Source: a virus. From it: a stretch of DNA of 25,037 nucleotides. The notes beneath the pieces were generated by a model. That model did no database searches, was not told where the DNA came from, and saw nothing but the letters and a program-made list of their open reading frames with translations. The stretch spans positions 1-25,037 of IMG/VR virus record IMGVR_UViG_3300027721_000069; one strand, 5' to 3'. How positions within the stretch are numbered: position 1 is the first letter of the stretch; each line of letters starts with the position of its first letter. The position numbers were made by a program, and so were the translations under genes. Below are positions 1,100 to 21,902 of this stretch, in pieces.

Positions 1100-3531
1100 T
1101 GTCACAATTCGGATCGGGACTGTCTGACCCTATCGGTGACGATGCTGACCGTGGGTTTTATGCTGTGAACCAGAGGCTGCAATTGAATCAGCTTCAGGAG
1201 GGAGAGGTGCGTGAGTCATTGAACGGGCGTATGGAGGGTTACTGGAAGCCTCGTAAGGGGGTTCTGAGCCTGACTACGGCACTTACCACGGGACAGGTTC
1301 CCTTGCAGTTGCCATTCTACCTGATCGACAGTCCGAAGACGATCTCGGCCACCACAGTCCCATCAACAGGAACCATCCGTATTACGGTTACGTCCCACGG
1401 GTTTGAGGCTGGATCTTCCGGCTGGGCTACCATATCGGGATTGGATGCTGCATTGAACGGTAGTTACCTTTTGACGTATCACGATGCCAATACCCTACAA
1501 TATACGGTTGCTGGAATTACATCGGTTACCGATGGGGTTGGAACACTCTCCCAGATGCAGATCAATGACGTGGCAAACGCCAACGTGAGGGCATCTTGCT
1601 TGTTCAGCGATCCAAACACGAACAACAAGGAATACATCATCGTGGCGATGGATACCGTTGCCAAGAGGATCGACCTAGAGACCTTTGCCATCACAGATAT
1701 CCCCTACTCATCGGGTCAGTCAGTCGGTGACAACAGCGACATGATTCAGGTCTTCGACAAGGTCATGCTGTTCCGCGCCGGGCAGCAGGCACTTGAGTGG
1801 TATCCTCAAGGAAGACCTATCCTGTCAGCATCCCAGTCTGGGACGACTACCGTGACGATGTCGGTGCGTGAGCATGGACTTGTGGCTGGGACTAGCATCA
1901 CAATTGCAGGATTGACTGGTGGCACACCTGCCAATGGCACTTTCGCTGTAGCGTCCGTGGTCGATAAGGACACCTTTACATACGTCTTTACGACCAGCCA
2001 GACCGTGACCTTCGGGGTAACCTCGGCAACGGTATCTGATGGCTTTACCCTTTCACCCGGCGGACCATACACCCAGCCACAAACCTTCAATATCACCGCT
2101 AAGGATGTGGATGTAGTTGATGGACTTGTGACTGCGACGGTCGCAGGCAATACTACAATCCAAGCTGGGGACACAATCGTAGTCCGACAGTCACCGACTA
2201 CCGACTTCCAATCGATGGTTGGAAACGAATACCAAGTAACAGAAGCCACCACCACCACTATCAAGTGGTATGCTCCCGTTGGCAACTATAACACATCCTC
2301 GTCAGACATCTTTGAATTTGGTGGCAGGTTCAGCGTTGGTGGAGGTTTCATGCATCAACCTGCAGCTCCGTGGGGAATTCACTTCCAAAGAAGGATTTGG
2401 GTTCCATACCTTTACGATCAATCAGGAACGTATAACGCTCCAACATATACTAGCCGGAAGATCACGGATGAGATCGCGGTATCTGATATCCTCGATACCA
2501 CGACCTTCGACCAAATCGAGAACCAGTTCCGTATCAGTGGTGGAACCGCAGACTATGTCGTCGGGATGCACGGATTCTACGATGACGCGCTCATCGTATT
2601 GAATAGAAATAGCCTTCATTCCGTAAAGGGAACCGTAGGAAGCCTTCTTGATGTCCAAGTTAAGGAGTTAACTTCCGAGGTTGGGTGCTTGGCTCGCAAG
2701 TCCGTAGTAATGCGTGGCAATACGATGATGTTCCTATCCGACGATGGGGTCTATTCACTTGAGTTCCTTAACGATTATAACCTCCGAGGTTCGGATGAGC
2801 CGATTTCCAAGAATATCCAGCCCTATATTGACCGAATCAACAAGGATTACGCGGCAGAAGCTGTTGGCATCTTGTTCGATAACCGATATTACCTTGCCTT
2901 GGCACTCGATTCCGAGGCCGGAGCCAACGATGCGCGTGGGAACAACTCCGTGATTGTCTATAATTTCAAAAACAAAGGCTGGGAATCACTCGATACATAT
3001 GGAGATCCCGCATTCTTAATCAAAAACTTCATGACTGGTTCGGCTGGAGTAAGAAATAACCTTTATGCTATCACCCAAAACGGTGGTTTACATCAAATCG
3101 ATGCAGTTGAAACATCTACTGATCGGCTTAACGTATCGAACATTGGTGGATCACTTGTAACACCGATAATCAATGCATCATTGACGACCAGAGGTTACGA
3201 TTTTAAGACTATTGATCGCAAAAGGTTCACAGATGCCCAGATCAATATGCAAAACCTTGCTGGAGACACAGGGGAATACAATATCGCATTCGCCACAGAA
3301 GACCCCGACAATGCAGTTCCTATCGGAACCACTACACAGTTTCTCGGTGGCAATGTGTTATCTCCAAGTTCAGCGAATGAGGCTGAAACCGCCAGCATTA
3401 GATGCAGATTGGCTGGAGTCAGAGGCTACACAGGAACCCTCATCTTGACACGAACCATTGGTTCACCCAAGATCAACTCCATTAAGGTCGCAGCATCAAT
3501 CACAAACAGACAAATCATCTCACAACAATAG
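1099..3531 (+). CDS. Tail nozzle / hub beta-propeller protein (tail tubular protein B-like)
   Basis: This 810-aa protein is likely the distal tube or nozzle of a short tail. The N-terminus (residues 1-75) has the pattern seen in such proteins, with YAVNQRLQLNQLQEGEV followed by NGRMEGYWKPRKG. Residues about 82-152, 240-316 and 334-394 look like three related small beta-sandwich modules inserted into the body. The first two share the pattern hGl.aG..itI.Gl...nG.y.v....d..Tf.yt. The rest (about 420-700) has repeated propeller-like blades, including DDALIVLNRNSLHSVKG, MMFLSDDGVYSLE, YYLALALDSE and NNSVIVYNFKNKGWESLD. It lies between a one-base-overlapping small gene and a fibre gene, matching a tail assignment. 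Assignment comes from motif pattern and context; the inserted modules are unusual enough to note. Confidence 0.75.
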   Translation: MSQFGSGLSDPIGDDADRGFYAVNQRLQLNQLQEGEVRESLNGRMEGYWKPRKGVLSLTTALTTGQVPLQLPFYLIDSPKTISATTVPSTGTIRITVTSHGFEAGSSGWATISGLDAALNGSYLLTYHDANTLQYTVAGITSVTDGVGTLSQMQINDVANANVRASCLFSDPNTNNKEYIIVAMDTVAKRIDLETFAITDIPYSSGQSVGDNSDMIQVFDKVMLFRAGQQALEWYPQGRPILSASQSGTTTVTMSVREHGLVAGTSITIAGLTGGTPANGTFAVASVVDKDTFTYVFTTSQTVTFGVTSATVSDGFTLSPGGPYTQPQTFNITAKDVDVVDGLVTATVAGNTTIQAGDTIVVRQSPTTDFQSMVGNEYQVTEATTTTIKWYAPVGNYNTSSSDIFEFGGRFSVGGGFMHQPAAPWGIHFQRRIWVPYLYDQSGTYNAPTYTSRKITDEIAVSDILDTTTFDQIENQFRISGGTADYVVGMHGFYDDALIVLNRNSLHSVKGTVGSLLDVQVKELTSEVGCLARKSVVMRGNTMMFLSDDGVYSLEFLNDYNLRGSDEPISKNIQPYIDRINKDYAAEAVGILFDNRYYLALALDSEAGANDARGNNSVIVYNFKNKGWESLDTYGDPAFLIKNFMTGSAGVRNNLYAITQNGGLHQIDAVETSTDRLNVSNIGGSLVTPIINASLTTRGYDFKTIDRKRFTDAQINMQNLAGDTGEYNIAFATEDPDNAVPIGTTTQFLGGNVLSPSSANEAETASIRCRLAGVRGYTGTLILTRTIGSPKINSIKVAASITNRQIISQQ

Positions 3532-12769: not shown

Positions 12770-13305
12770 TTAAGTCAAAATCTGAGTCATTAGAGGTTCA
12801 GTCGCCTGAGTGGTTCGCAGAAGTCCTCGAAAGAGCCAAGGCCCACGGCGACCGCAAGCGGGTTGAATACTGGAACCCAGAAGGGGCTGCAAAGGCTCTC
12901 TGGATGCTCGCACAGGGACGTAGCTACTGCTCCATAGCAAAGGAGACAGGGATCGACAGGAAGACCATCAGAAGCCTCGAATGGAGGCACGAGGACACCC
13001 TAGAGACGAAGCGCAAGGACTTCTCGCGGAAGTATGCCATCGCTGCCGAGGAATACACGGATTTGCTCTTCCAGAAGGCAGAACAGCTTGCTGATGACCC
13101 AGATCAACTCAAGAACATCTCTCCAGACCGTCTAGCACTCACGGTAGGTATCATGACCGACAAGGCTACCCAGCTTGCTGGTATGGCAGGCGTGGTGATC
13201 GAGCATCGTAAAGGGGCATCTATCGAGGACGCTGCCATCATGATCGCTCAAGCTAAGGCTAAGGTCGCATCCCGGATGTCCAACGTGATCATCGATGTAG
13301 CATGA
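12766..13305 (+). CDS. terS: Terminase small subunit (TerS)
   Basis: This 179-aa DNA-recognition subunit of the packaging motor has a predicted helix-turn-helix at about residues 43-75 (ALWMLAQGRSYCSIAKETG, then IDRKTIRSLEWRH). Long helices follow (about 85-145), suitable for ring assembly, and a short beta-prone tail, as in TerS proteins. It is immediately upstream of TerL and overlaps it by four bases (ATGA), the classic TerS-TerL arrangement. GC content is clearly higher than in the preceding acidic gene, so a composition break falls at this gene's start. TerS sequences diverge strongly, so the call rests on HTH plus position. Confidence 0.8.
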   Translation: MIKSKSESLEVQSPEWFAEVLERAKAHGDRKRVEYWNPEGAAKALWMLAQGRSYCSIAKETGIDRKTIRSLEWRHEDTLETKRKDFSRKYAIAAEEYTDLLFQKAEQLADDPDQLKNISPDRLALTVGIMTDKATQLAGMAGVVIEHRKGASIEDAAIMIAQAKAKVASRMSNVIIDVA

Positions 13306-15830
13306 AGTGGAGGTCTCACCAAATCCTGACTCCTCCCTCGGAGGATGAGATCGCGGAGATGGAGCCAGAGGAACTGGTCGAACTCCACAAGATATACCAC
13401 GAGGCCATCGAGAACGCGGAGAAAGACCCGTTCAGGTATGGATTCCGGCTACCACACTGGGGTAAGGCAGAAGAGCAGTTGTCAGAGGTCACAGAGATCG
13501 TGGCACTTGGAGGTAACAGGTGTCTTGCTCCAGAGCAGGAAATATACGATCCTGTGACGAATAAAAGCACTCCAGTTTCAGAAATTACTTCTGAGTTTCA
13601 TGTGCTTGCATGGGACGGGGAAAAACAGATTCAATGCCGTGCTTTACGACCATTTGTAAAGACTGTTGCCAAGACATACCAAGTGATTCTAGGAAACGGT
13701 GACACGTTTCAGTGTTCGGCGGAGCATCAAGTTTCAACTCCCTTTGGATGGCGTTCCGTAAAAGACATAGGCATCGGCGGAGTTGTCTCGACTCTGGAGA
13801 AAGAACCATCGGTTTCTTGTTCTTCTGGCCGTCACGCATTTTCTTTTTTCCTTCCTCACTCCAACGTGGGATCTGTCCTTTCAAGGTTTCGGCTAGGTGC
13901 TTTGCGTTTGATTCAAACACTTCTAGATTCTCTGGACGATTGTCAGTCTTCACCCCGTTTTTGTGGTGAACTACTTCCGTCTTTAGTAAGAATCGACCCA
14001 ACTGCTTCTCCATCACAAGACGATGCTCCAAAATATAATGGGTATGTCTCTTTGCATTCGGGTGACCGGGAGAGTAAATCTCTACATAGCCGTCCTTATT
14101 CAGGGTCTTGCCACCTTTCCAACCCTTATGAAGAGATCCACTACGAGGACCACTGCGAGGCATCTGGATCTTATGTTTCTTACAGAGTTTTGAAACCCCG
14201 GCAGTTGACCACCTCTGACCGCATCGCTCAAAAGCTAAGTCTGAAACTTCTTGCAGCGTTTTGCCTTGTTCGATCAGTCCCTTTAATTCGTCTCCCGATA
14301 CAATATCTTCTAAGATTGTTTTCATGTGCGCTGACTAAGTCTGGAGAAACTATTATTGTCAAGGTTTATGATAAACAGGTAAGCGAGATATGGGATATTG
14401 AGGTTCCAGAGGCGGGTAACTATTTCATTGGTAACGTCTTGCAAAAAAACTCAGGCAAAACTCAATGGGGTGCATTCTCCATCGTCCGTGCTGCGGTAGA
14501 AAACCCCAACTCCGAGATATTCTGCTTCGCACAAACCTCCGAGGTGTCCATTCGTCAGCAGCAGAGTGCTGTTTACGACTGGCTGCCAGCGGAGCTAAAG
14601 ACCAAGCAGACATCCGCAGGGGCGTATATTTCTTACACGAAAAAGAACGGATTTACCGATGGCAGTCTAATCCTCCCAAACGGCTCCCAGATCATCTTCA
14701 AGACTTACTCCCAGTATCAGAACAACCCCACTATTCTGGAGGGTGCGGAACTCGGCAGCAGGTCACCTGTATGGCACAATATCGGGGTATGGCTGGACGA
14801 GTATCTGCTCGGACCAGAACTGATCAATACCCTGCGATTCCGACTAGCCACAAGGGACGCAAAGATGCTGGTGACGTTCACGCCTATCGACGGGTGGACG
14901 GAGGTCATCAAGGAGTATCTCGACAGTGCTGCGACCATTGAATCCCGCCCTGCGGAACTACTCAAGGGTGAGCTTGTCCCATACATCCAGAGATCGAAGA
15001 AGCGGAATGCTAGTATTCACTACTTCCACTCGCAGGATAACCCATTCGGTGGCTACGACCGCATCAAGGAGGCTTTGGAGGGCAGGTCGAGGGAAGAGAT
15101 CCTAATCCGCGCATACGGGGTTCCTGTGAAGTCTCAGGCTACCAAGTTCCCCAAGTTCAACACCGCAGTGAACGTCATCCCGAAGGATCAGATCCCGACC
15201 AAGAACGTCACGCGCTACCACATCATCGACCCCGCCGGGGCGAAGAACTGGTTCATGTGCTGGGTGGCTGTGGACGAGTCTGGAACCTACTACATCTACC
15301 GCGAGTGGCCTAGCGTGGAGTATGGTGACTGGGCTGAGTGGAAGAGCGGTAAATGGATACCCGGCGAGGCTGCCAAGGGGCTTGGATATGGCATCAGGGA
15401 CTACGTCGAACTGATCCAGAACTACGAGGAAGACGAGGAGATATTTGACAGGCTAATCGACCCACGCCTAGGTGCTGCTAGGTATCAAGCGTCTGACGGG
15501 GCTTCATCCATTATCGAGGATCTGGGGGAAATGGAGATCATCTGTAATCCAGCCCCCGGTCTAGAGATCGAGGAGGGACTTCAGGCGTTGATTAGTAAGA
15601 TGAGTTACGATACCAGCAAACCACTAGACTCAATCAACCGACCCCATTTCTACATATCATCCGACTGCGAGAACATCATCAGGGCATTAGCCGAATATAC
15701 TGGGGATCAGGGACTCAAGGAGGCATGGAAAGACCCTATTGACGTTCTTCGTTATGCTGCCATTGCAGACCTAGATCACGTTGACACTAAGAAAACACAA
15801 ACCACAAGACAAGGTAATGGAGGATATTAA
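13302..15830 (+). CDS. terL: Terminase large subunit (TerL), intein-containing precursor
   Basis: This 842-aa precursor gives a 532-aa ATPase-nuclease motor after removal of a 310-aa intein (residues 74-383). N-extein: residues 1-73, ending IVALGGNR. C-extein: from Ser384, beginning SGKTQWG. Joined, these restore the Walker A motif GGNRSGKT. Walker B is VWLDE with Asp499 and Glu500, and a coupling-type motif VTFTPIDG follows. Candidate RNase H-like nuclease acidic residues are Asp643 (YHIIDPAG), Asp720 (LIDPRLG) and Asp814 (PIDVLRY). The protein translocates DNA into the prohead through the portal and cuts concatemers. Unspliced protein should be inactive because the ATP-binding loop is interrupted. 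It overlaps TerS by 4 bases and the next gene by 14 bases. An HNH gene lies on the opposite strand within the intein. Confidence 0.95.
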   Translation: MKWRSHQILTPPSEDEIAEMEPEELVELHKIYHEAIENAEKDPFRYGFRLPHWGKAEEQLSEVTEIVALGGNRCLAPEQEIYDPVTNKSTPVSEITSEFHVLAWDGEKQIQCRALRPFVKTVAKTYQVILGNGDTFQCSAEHQVSTPFGWRSVKDIGIGGVVSTLEKEPSVSCSSGRHAFSFFLPHSNVGSVLSRFRLGALRLIQTLLDSLDDCQSSPRFCGELLPSLVRIDPTASPSQDDAPKYNGYVSLHSGDRESKSLHSRPYSGSCHLSNPYEEIHYEDHCEASGSYVSYRVLKPRQLTTSDRIAQKLSLKLLAAFCLVRSVPLIRLPIQYLLRLFSCALTKSGETIIVKVYDKQVSEIWDIEVPEAGNYFIGNVLQKNSGKTQWGAFSIVRAAVENPNSEIFCFAQTSEVSIRQQQSAVYDWLPAELKTKQTSAGAYISYTKKNGFTDGSLILPNGSQIIFKTYSQYQNNPTILEGAELGSRSPVWHNIGVWLDEYLLGPELINTLRFRLATRDAKMLVTFTPIDGWTEVIKEYLDSAATIESRPAELLKGELVPYIQRSKKRNASIHYFHSQDNPFGGYDRIKEALEGRSREEILIRAYGVPVKSQATKFPKFNTAVNVIPKDQIPTKNVTRYHIIDPAGAKNWFMCWVAVDESGTYYIYREWPSVEYGDWAEWKSGKWIPGEAAKGLGYGIRDYVELIQNYEEDEEIFDRLIDPRLGAARYQASDGASSIIEDLGEMEIICNPAPGLEIEEGLQALISKMSYDTSKPLDSINRPHFYISSDCENIIRALAEYTGDQGLKEAWKDPIDVLRYAAIADLDHVDTKKTQTTRQGNGGY
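13521..14450 (+). mobile_element. Intein in the TerL P-loop
   Basis: This is a self-splicing protein element of 310 residues. The first residue is Cys74 of the precursor (CLAPEQEIYDP, splicing block A). Block B is near residues 138-151 (CSAEHQVSTPFGW, with His142, intein position 69). The C-terminal blocks run through EIWDIEVPEAGNYFIGNVLQKN, ending in Asn383, with Ser384 as the +1 nucleophile. The penultimate residue is Lys, not the usual His. The P-loop of TerL is a known favoured intein site. Between block B and the C-terminal blocks, the sense translation (about residues 165-335) shows no LAGLIDADG or HNH endonuclease and looks like arbitrary sequence; the opposite strand of that DNA encodes an HNH nuclease. 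Base composition and codon use differ from the flanking GC-richer exteins, consistent with later acquisition. Confidence 0.93.
13585..14325 (-). CDS. HNH homing endonuclease encoded antisense within the TerL intein
   Basis: This 246-aa ORF starts at an ATG whose complement is 14323-14325; an in-frame stop lies only four codons upstream, so the start is well fixed. Residues 14-60 look like a helix-turn-helix DNA-binding segment (LIEQGKTLQEVSDLAFERCG, then STAGVSKLCKKHKIQMPRSG). Residues 80-143 are a full HNH_3-type core: GYVEIYSPGHP, LEHRLVMEKQLGR, TEVVHHKNGVKTDNRPENLEVF, with His120/His121, Asn123, Asn129, Asn133 and His143 as candidate catalytic or zinc/metal-site residues. The core lies over 13897-14088. 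The C-terminal about 60 residues overlap the coding region of the intein's splicing block B and may be partly shadow. It probably cuts intein-free TerL genes. No pseudogene damage is visible. A TTGACA lies upstream on the minus strand (14362 to 14357). Confidence 0.88.
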   Translation of the reverse strand: MKTILEDIVSGDELKGLIEQGKTLQEVSDLAFERCGQRWSTAGVSKLCKKHKIQMPRSGPRSGSLHKGWKGGKTLNKDGYVEIYSPGHPNAKRHTHYILEHRLVMEKQLGRFLLKTEVVHHKNGVKTDNRPENLEVFESNAKHLAETLKGQIPRWSEEGKKKMRDGQKNKKPMVLSPESRQLRRCLCLLRNAIQRELKLDAPPNTETCHRFLESLGMSWQQSLQMVVKHGIESVFPRPMQAHETQK

Positions 15831-20886: not shown

Positions 20887-21870
20887 ATGCCTATCTCAAG
20901 CACTTACTCACCAAACGCACCTGCCGCCCGCACGGGTCAAGGTTCGGCCATCGCAAACCGCGAGGATCTCTCCAACGAGTTGACCCTCCTTGCACCAGAA
21001 GAAACCCCTCTCCTTTCGCTCTGCGGTAAGGGGACTGCTAAATCCACGTTCTCGGAATGGACTGCTGACAAGCTTTCCGCTCCTATCACCGCTGGTATCG
21101 CAGAGGGTGCAGATGTGAACTCGTTCTCCGACAAGTTTGCACAACGCGCTCGCCTTGGTAACTACGTTCAAATCTTCCGCCGCGACTTCCTCGTGTCGAA
21201 CCTTCAAGAAGCTGTTGCATCCGTTGGTCCAGCCAACATCGCACAAGCCGAAGCAATGTCGATGCGCGAAATCAAACGCGATGTCGAAGCCCGTATCTGC
21301 TCCAACAGCGACCGTTCCGTAGAGGATGGTGCTGGCACTCCATACGCCCTCCGTGGCCTTGGTGACTGGTTGGATTCCGCAGGTCCTGCTGACGTTCCTG
21401 CTGCATACCGCACCCCGGCTGCAAGCATCCTGTCCAGCGCACCTACCGAAACCACGTTCAACGACATCATCGCGTCGATCTTCTCCGTCAATGGTGAAGC
21501 TAACTCGCTGTCCCTCGTTGCCAACGTAGCCCTTCGCAAGGTGATCAGCAACTTCACCCGTTCTAGCGGTGCTGCTGCTTCCGAGGCAGTTTACACTGTC
21601 AACCAGAACGCTGAGAGCAAGAAGGTCACTCACTCCGTCCAACTCTATGATTCCGACTTCGGTATCGTTAAAGTTATCAACGGTAACCCAGATTGTATGA
21701 CTGGTGCTTCTGGCTACCTCGTCAATCCATCCTACTTGCAATTCAACACGCTCATCCCAATGGGTGTTACTCGCCTTGAGAACCAAGGTGGTGGCGAGCG
21801 TGGCTTTGTTGACATGGCTGGAACTCTCGTCTGTAAGCATCCCGGCGCACACGGCAAGATCACCCTGTAA
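20887..21870 (+). CDS. Major capsid protein, SU10-like family
   Basis: This 327-aa protein is expected to adopt the HK97 fold and build the head shell. The N-terminal part (ANREDLSNELTLLAPEETPLL, then EWTADKL) matches the 'aReDLsd.i.....eTP....' pattern of the SU10-type major capsid family (formerly DUF5309). Downstream YVQIFRRDFLVSN, a helix with MREIKRDVEARI and LRGLGDWLDS, and the C-terminal MGVTRLENQGGGERGFVDMAGTL, also fit. It is GC-rich with many C-ending codons, as in a highly expressed gene. It follows the scaffold by 24 bases and precedes the head/decoration gene. An antisense open frame covering nearly all of it looks like a codon-bias shadow. Confidence 0.92.
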   Translation: MPISSTYSPNAPAARTGQGSAIANREDLSNELTLLAPEETPLLSLCGKGTAKSTFSEWTADKLSAPITAGIAEGADVNSFSDKFAQRARLGNYVQIFRRDFLVSNLQEAVASVGPANIAQAEAMSMREIKRDVEARICSNSDRSVEDGAGTPYALRGLGDWLDSAGPADVPAAYRTPAASILSSAPTETTFNDIIASIFSVNGEANSLSLVANVALRKVISNFTRSSGAAASEAVYTVNQNAESKKVTHSVQLYDSDFGIVKVINGNPDCMTGASGYLVNPSYLQFNTLIPMGVTRLENQGGGERGFVDMAGTLVCKHPGAHGKITL

Positions 21871-21902
21871 TATAAACAACTGAAAATTAACTAAATAATT
21901 AT

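Follow-up and report, generated by a model that had tools for sequence, protein, structure and literature searches.

Antisense homing genes and inteins

Descriptions of inteins, to our knowledge, comprise a splicing domain and no more than an endonuclease domain encoded on the same strand. The split inteins found in fractured genes by Dassa et al. in 2009 reportedly have a free-standing endonuclease gene between their two halves. In mycobacteriophage DNA methylases, the ShiLan element consists of an HNH gene that shares the strand of its host gene but is read in the third frame, without a splicing domain (PMC11855218). Nuclear rDNA group I introns can contain His-Cys homing genes on the antisense strand (PMC9548176). 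No published intein with an antisense endonuclease was found in full-text literature searches, subscription papers being outside this coverage. The nearest precedents are the hidden HNH of ShiLan and the antisense homing genes of group I introns.

The 25,037-nt stretch of viral DNA analysed here (the window) contains such an arrangement within its large terminase gene. With considerable confidence, we read it as a homing intein whose endonuclease gene is antisense to the splicing domain; protein splicing, cleavage of the empty site, expression from the minus strand and a single origin are inferences within this reading. Both coding sequences, the exact insertion site, constraint specific to each strand, recurrence, and the gain, loss or exchange of alleles are direct observations.

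The terminase gene and its insertion site

The large terminase (TerL) ORF extends over 842 unbroken codons on the plus strand (13302..15830), and its C-terminal part matches the PHROG family phrog_2, terminase large subunit (E 6.8e-16), and the Pfam family Terminase_6N (E 0.0013). The Walker A motif GGNR|SGKT of this phage TerL is split by a 310-aa intein, while many TerL homologues have a gap of 0 at this point. The N-extein (13302..13520, plus) ends in GGNR, the first half of the motif, and intein-less homologues run from GGNR to SGKT here without a gap. The C-extein (14451..15830, plus), assigned from the terminase profile matches of the whole ORF, begins with the second half, SGKT. At the nucleotide level, the junction halves are GGAGGTAACAGG upstream (13509..13520, encoding GGNR) and TCAGGCAAAACT downstream (14451-14462, encoding SGKT), as defined by the empty alleles L038, L041 and L044-L047. 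These alleles fix the ends of the intein exactly: it occupies 13521..14450 on the plus strand, from Cys1 to Asn310, and is followed by Ser+1. An RNA element at this locus was rejected, as no Rfam match was found in the window and the sense frame is open.

The splicing domain on the plus strand

The insert is matched weakly by the Pfam profile Intein_splicing (E 0.011, below the cut-off). In a PDB profile search, its family alignment matches the structures of the RecA, DnaB and gp41-1 inteins (E about 1e-6), and an AF2 model of the 310 residues compared with the PDB by Foldseek retrieves the inteins of RecA and DnaB (E 7e-6 to 1e-4). Strands are modelled confidently at residues 1-91 and 276-310, whereas most of the linker scores low. 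The N-terminal Hint splicing blocks comprise aa 1-92 (13521..13796), where Hint strands are predicted with a pLDDT of about 80-92 and C1, H69 and G76-W77 are invariant. The C-terminal Hint blocks, WDIEVPEAGNYFIGNVLQKN (14331..14450), were placed from the family alignment and the AF2 model. Between them, the sense linker (13797..14325) is stop-free, poorly conserved and antisense to the core of the HNH gene, with an AF2 pLDDT <50 across much of its length. The residues needed for intein splicing are present: C1, the block-B H69 and N310 are invariant in the family alignment, and Ser+1 is found in the sequence. The penultimate residue in this intein class is Lys (Lys-Asn|Ser); in inteins it is usually His. 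By all features that could be checked, the insert belongs to the intein family, as the preliminary description of this DNA had proposed for the sense strand, and protein splicing is inferred.

A non-working intein, tolerated unspliced in TerL as has been proposed for the ShiLan methylase element and mobile through its HNH alone, would be difficult to reconcile with a Hint fold conserved together with C1, the block-B His and the Asn-Ser end, or with a naive dN/dS of 0.14, which indicates purifying selection on the Hint domain. Further, an unspliced TerL should be dead because the insert interrupts the catalytic Walker A motif. We judge this reading highly unlikely, even though splicing is only inferred, the Pfam intein score lies under the cut-off and related HNHs occur in methylases without a Hint domain.

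The endonuclease gene on the minus strand

The preliminary description placed a complete HNH endonuclease on the minus strand inside the intein. Indeed, an ATG-started ORF of 246 aa (13585..14325, minus) lies wholly within it, and the profile search suggested at the time gives a Pfam HNH_3 match for its product (E 2.8e-10, above the gathering score), along with a match to phrog_20891, HNH endonuclease (E 2.2e-29). The HNH_3 catalytic core at aa 101-137 (13915..14025, minus) is marked by the motifs EHRLVME, EVVHHKNG and DNRPENLEV, and residues E100-H101-R102, H121, N129, N133 and H143 are invariant across 20 diverse members. The N-terminus, aa 1-55 (14161..14325, minus), is helical, with AF2 helices at aa 1-50 (pLDDT 76-84), and its designation as HTH-like is inferred. 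The C-terminal tail, aa 176-246 (13588..13800, minus), is antisense to the Hint N blocks, and sense-wobble diversity indicates constraint on both strands there. The AF2 confidence is low over the HNH core (pLDDT under 50 in much of it), and a PDB search with the HNH alignment returned a single chain, labelled 'CAP REPEAT', which matched only the N-terminal segment.

A promoter and terminator scan found no sigma-70-like promoter, and likewise no terminator, on the minus strand here; a leaderless or distant promoter is possible. No clear Shine-Dalgarno was found ahead of the HNH ATG in the window copy. In two distant members (L170 and L172), a strong AGGAGG Shine-Dalgarno stands correctly placed before the HNH ATG. 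The minus-strand ORF is a genuine HTH+HNH_3 endonuclease gene, whose nuclease activity and expression are inferred.

Two open frames and strand-specific selection

The length of the antisense ORF carries little weight by itself, because the window also contains a 323-aa TTG-start ORF (20908-21879, minus) that is wholly antisense to an SU10-like capsid gene (20887-21870, plus). This ORF, which is probably a chance product, has no Pfam or PHROG match and was used as a negative control. It is homology and the pattern of selection that carry the case for the HNH gene.

Sense and antisense frames are both open in 22/22 distinct inserts tested. Synonymous shuffles that preserve the HNH would be expected to create 3.6-7.4 sense stops per sequence, and those that preserve the sense protein 2.6-7.6 antisense stops; in both directions, 0 were observed in the 22 inserts. 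A chance antisense ORF as the identity of the HNH frame was rejected on the stop shuffles and the comparison with the capsid-antisense control. An inverted misassembly was rejected as well, since independent contigs from many metagenomes and isolate genomes show the HNH antisense.

In the overlap, antisense codon position 1 lies opposite sense position 1, antisense 2 opposite sense 3, and antisense 3 opposite sense 2. Diversity was averaged for each sense codon position over 17 distinct 930-nt inteins. The values at positions 1/2/3 are 0.13/0.09/0.49 in the first 21 intein codons, 0.09/0.22/0.08 where the linker faces the HNH core, and 0.10/0.05/0.36 for the C-terminal Hint blocks. Wobble positions of the splicing domain are accordingly free to vary at either end of the element, and those of the HNH in its middle part. 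Opposite the HNH tail, at codons 23-90, constraint extends to every codon position (0.05/0.04/0.16), and the sense-wobble diversity of 0.16 is lower than the 0.40 in the remaining Hint domain (p 1.8e-8). A second class of 885-nt inteins, in which the HNH stops short of the splicing blocks, has a sense-wobble diversity of 0.39 at the same codons. Because this added constraint is lacking in the tail-less class, the tail is selected on the minus strand in the 930-nt class. Judged from these diversities, about 68 codons (13588-13796) are constrained on both strands at once in the window's intein class. The preliminary description needs a correction here, in that the overlap reaches beyond the linker: the last ~70 codons of the minus-strand ORF lie opposite the N-terminal splicing blocks. 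The tail is not universal; it is absent from a close member, L017 (933 nt), and from the 885-nt class.

Naive dN/dS is 0.16 for the antisense HNH core, close to that of the Hint domain, and 1.6 for the sense linker. The strand-specific pattern of substitution, one of the checks proposed in the preliminary description, thus favours its interpretation, with one refinement. On these rates, protein-level conservation is missing from the sense linker, which is for the most part just the stop-free shadow cast by the HNH gene. The same contrast between strands argues against the antisense ORF being a dead relic or a coincidental frame, held open incidentally by the sense strand. Long antisense ORFs do arise by chance, as the one opposite the capsid gene illustrates, but the present frame matches HNH profiles with invariant catalytic residues and lacks the antisense stops that the shuffles predict. 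Moreover, no broken HNH frames were seen among distinct full inteins, and we give a relic or chance frame practically no credence. Two outcomes that would have refuted the preliminary description, an HNH segment in the sense orientation and a sense linker retained despite a broken HNH core, were encountered in no homologue.

Distribution

An IMG/VR search with the HNH alignment returned >500 relatives, and among the best 80 of these nearly all are antisense within an intein at the TerL Walker A motif, with insertion sites that include GGNR|SGKT, NRxGK|T and AS|SGKS. Other contigs whose TerL is interrupted by the complete intein at the site seen in the window retain an intact HNH core. With improved Hint profiles applied to all loci, an HNH antisense within one ORF that contains both Hint halves was found at 268 viral loci, a count without deduplication, at 9 loci in bacterial genomes and at 1 in an annotated phage, all in one phase. 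Counted by distinct linkers over all searches, there are 133 distinct inteins with an antisense HNH, and none (0/133) has an HNH on the sense strand. The absence of a sense-strand endonuclease, claimed for the window's intein alone, is matched throughout, and the arrangement is far more general than the preliminary description assumed. These counts are biased because it was mostly the HNH or Hint of this one family that led to the loci. A 134th long linker (L304, Rubrobacteraceae) is without an HNH; it belongs to a DnaB-like protein with two inteins that matched the Hint profiles and are, as judged by eye, of the ordinary classical kind. The HNH family also has freestanding members with no overlapping antisense ORF (45/80 bacterial-genome loci).

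Inteins with an antisense HNH were also seen in the P-loop of SNF2-type helicases from Acidobacteria MAGs (L280 and L281) and of a strawberry-notch-type helicase from Polaromonas sp. CG9_12 (L297). Given these helicase hosts, the class extends beyond terminases. In a Nitrospira MAG (VGWY01000134.1), a DNA methylase ORF (L302, 1523-4489, minus) has an HNH of the same family antisense to it at 3004-3471 (plus). No Hint domain was detectable in this methylase ORF, which resembles ShiLan in its hidden HNH but has it on the opposite strand.

Among cultured phages, Pectobacterium phage Ymer (OP748252.2; L272, 1095-3359, minus) has a TerL (XBW68187.1) with a 232-aa antisense HNH. The protein matches Terminase_6N and 6C, and its intein matches are weak. 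It is annotated as 'hypothetical protein', probably because the intein went unrecognized. Seven relatives of Ymer (Abuela, Koroua, Amona, Taid, Pappous, Sabo and Setonix) have TerL proteins 96-100% identical to that of Ymer and an HNH match on the strand opposite to TerL, just upstream of the C-extein. The paper on the Ymer genus reports manual annotation of the large terminase, without mention of an intein or an HNH (PMC11445585).

Mobility and origin

In a sample of 100 distinct alleles from the window's TerL group (GGNR site), 38/100 are empty. TerL exteins that are 99.5-100% identical may be empty, contain the 930-nt class or contain another intein class. For example, a 210-aa extein stretch is 100% identical across L100 (empty), L023 and L024 (930-nt intein) and L142 (885-nt intein), while the 930-nt and 885-nt classes are only about 35% identical. 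The inteins thus move, because near-identical TerL alleles are empty or carry either class. Homing, loss and replacement would give this pattern of alleles, and homing itself is inferred from it.

These alleles also bear on whether the antisense HNH, though real and selected, serves DNA packaging as a terminase partner and not homing. HNH proteins encoded beside terminase genes can be required for packaging in some phages, and the present gene lies within TerL itself. However, a packaging HNH would be expected in all members, an expectation that the empty alleles do not meet: near-identical TerL alleles lack the entire element. The same element is, further, found in SNF2-type and strawberry-notch-type helicases. 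A role in packaging is thus very unlikely in our estimation.

Mini-inteins without an HNH occur at the same TerL site (L037, 408-nt; L073, 396-nt), and the 132-aa L073 mini-intein shows 40% identity. As a separate observation, opposite the Hint N blocks of L073 there is an antisense frame without stops over 62 codons, similar to the HNH tail seen in full-length classes.

The HNH gene occupies the position at which canonical inteins hold their endonuclease, and HNH and Hint distances co-diverge (Mantel r 0.69, 77 non-redundant members). The codon-aligned antisense phase is also stop-free for every HNH, yet only one other phase occurs. Stop avoidance alone consequently fails to explain the single phase, whereas common descent does. 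Phe followed by Ile/Met/Thr/Asn/Lys is found in 0/171 antisense HNHs, compared with 23/79 freestanding relatives; this is not evidence, because an open sense frame logically entails such avoidance. The simplest origin is probably one ancient insertion of a reversed HNH, a single origin being an inference from sequence comparison. The reverse invasion of a mini-intein put forward earlier remains plausible in view of the L073 mini-intein at the same site. One old insertion, rather than a recent event in the phage of the window, is indicated by the shared phase and the co-divergence of HNH and Hint.

Proposed mechanism and significance

On the plus strand, the Hint splicing domain would excise itself from TerL. 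A separate HTH-HNH_3 endonuclease, encoded by the minus strand of the same DNA, is inferred to cut TerL genes that lack the intein, at the codons of Walker A, and repair of the cut empty gene would then copy the whole segment in. The HNH gene would have entered an ancestral mini-intein in reverse, at the usual position of the endonuclease and probably once. The plus strand is proposed to stay stop-free over the HNH because TerL must be translated through it, and the minus-strand frame would be kept by selection for the nuclease. In the window's class, the extension of the HNH tail over the splicing blocks leaves about 68 codons constrained on both strands.

By inference, a nuclease on the other strand would permit its production independently of the terminase. 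A broader proposal, which we favour with distinctly less assurance than the homing intein itself, is that these elements form a widespread, old class of Walker A phage inteins in which the endonuclease is obligatorily antisense, its expression is uncoupled from that of the late terminase, and, in part of the class, both proteins are selected at once on shared codons.

Surveys that consider one frame would class such inteins as having nondescript linkers and miss the nuclease. The >130 cases represent natural long antisense overlaps between two proteins of known kind, and tail-bearing and tail-less classes provide an internal control with which strand-specific selection on overlapping genes can be measured directly. 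They also raise the question of a packaging gene that carries, on its other strand, a homing gene that may act at a different time. As cultured phages with an antisense-HNH intein exist, the arrangement is open to bench testing.

Comparison with known systems

The HNH of ShiLan is a relative of the TerL-intein HNH family (tblastn E 4e-7 to 7e-8). Both elements are HNH insertions that leave the host frame open, and both have a disjunct distribution. However, the ShiLan HNH uses another frame of the host gene's own strand and has no detectable splicing domain around it, whereas that of TerL is antisense within a Hint intein. The rDNA group I introns share with the TerL intein a homing gene on the strand opposing a self-splicing element; they splice as RNA and involve no protein-coding overlap, in contrast to the TerL intein, where both strands are protein-coding (PMC9548176).

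A separate endonuclease gene between splicing halves is a feature that the TerL intein has in common with the split inteins attributed to Dassa et al. In those, as reported, the host gene is in two pieces and splicing occurs in trans, while TerL is one continuous ORF across the nuclease gene.

Canonical homing inteins such as those of DnaB and RecA share with the TerL element a Hint domain, a P-loop enzyme as host with the insertion at its most conserved motif, an endonuclease located between the N and C splicing blocks, and empty alleles. Their endonuclease is in frame on the same strand, which none of the 133 distinct inteins satisfies; in the TerL intein, the opposite strand encodes it as a gene of its own, and the sense linker is without a nuclease. 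The strand of the nuclease is the one defining feature in which the TerL element differs from canonical homing inteins.
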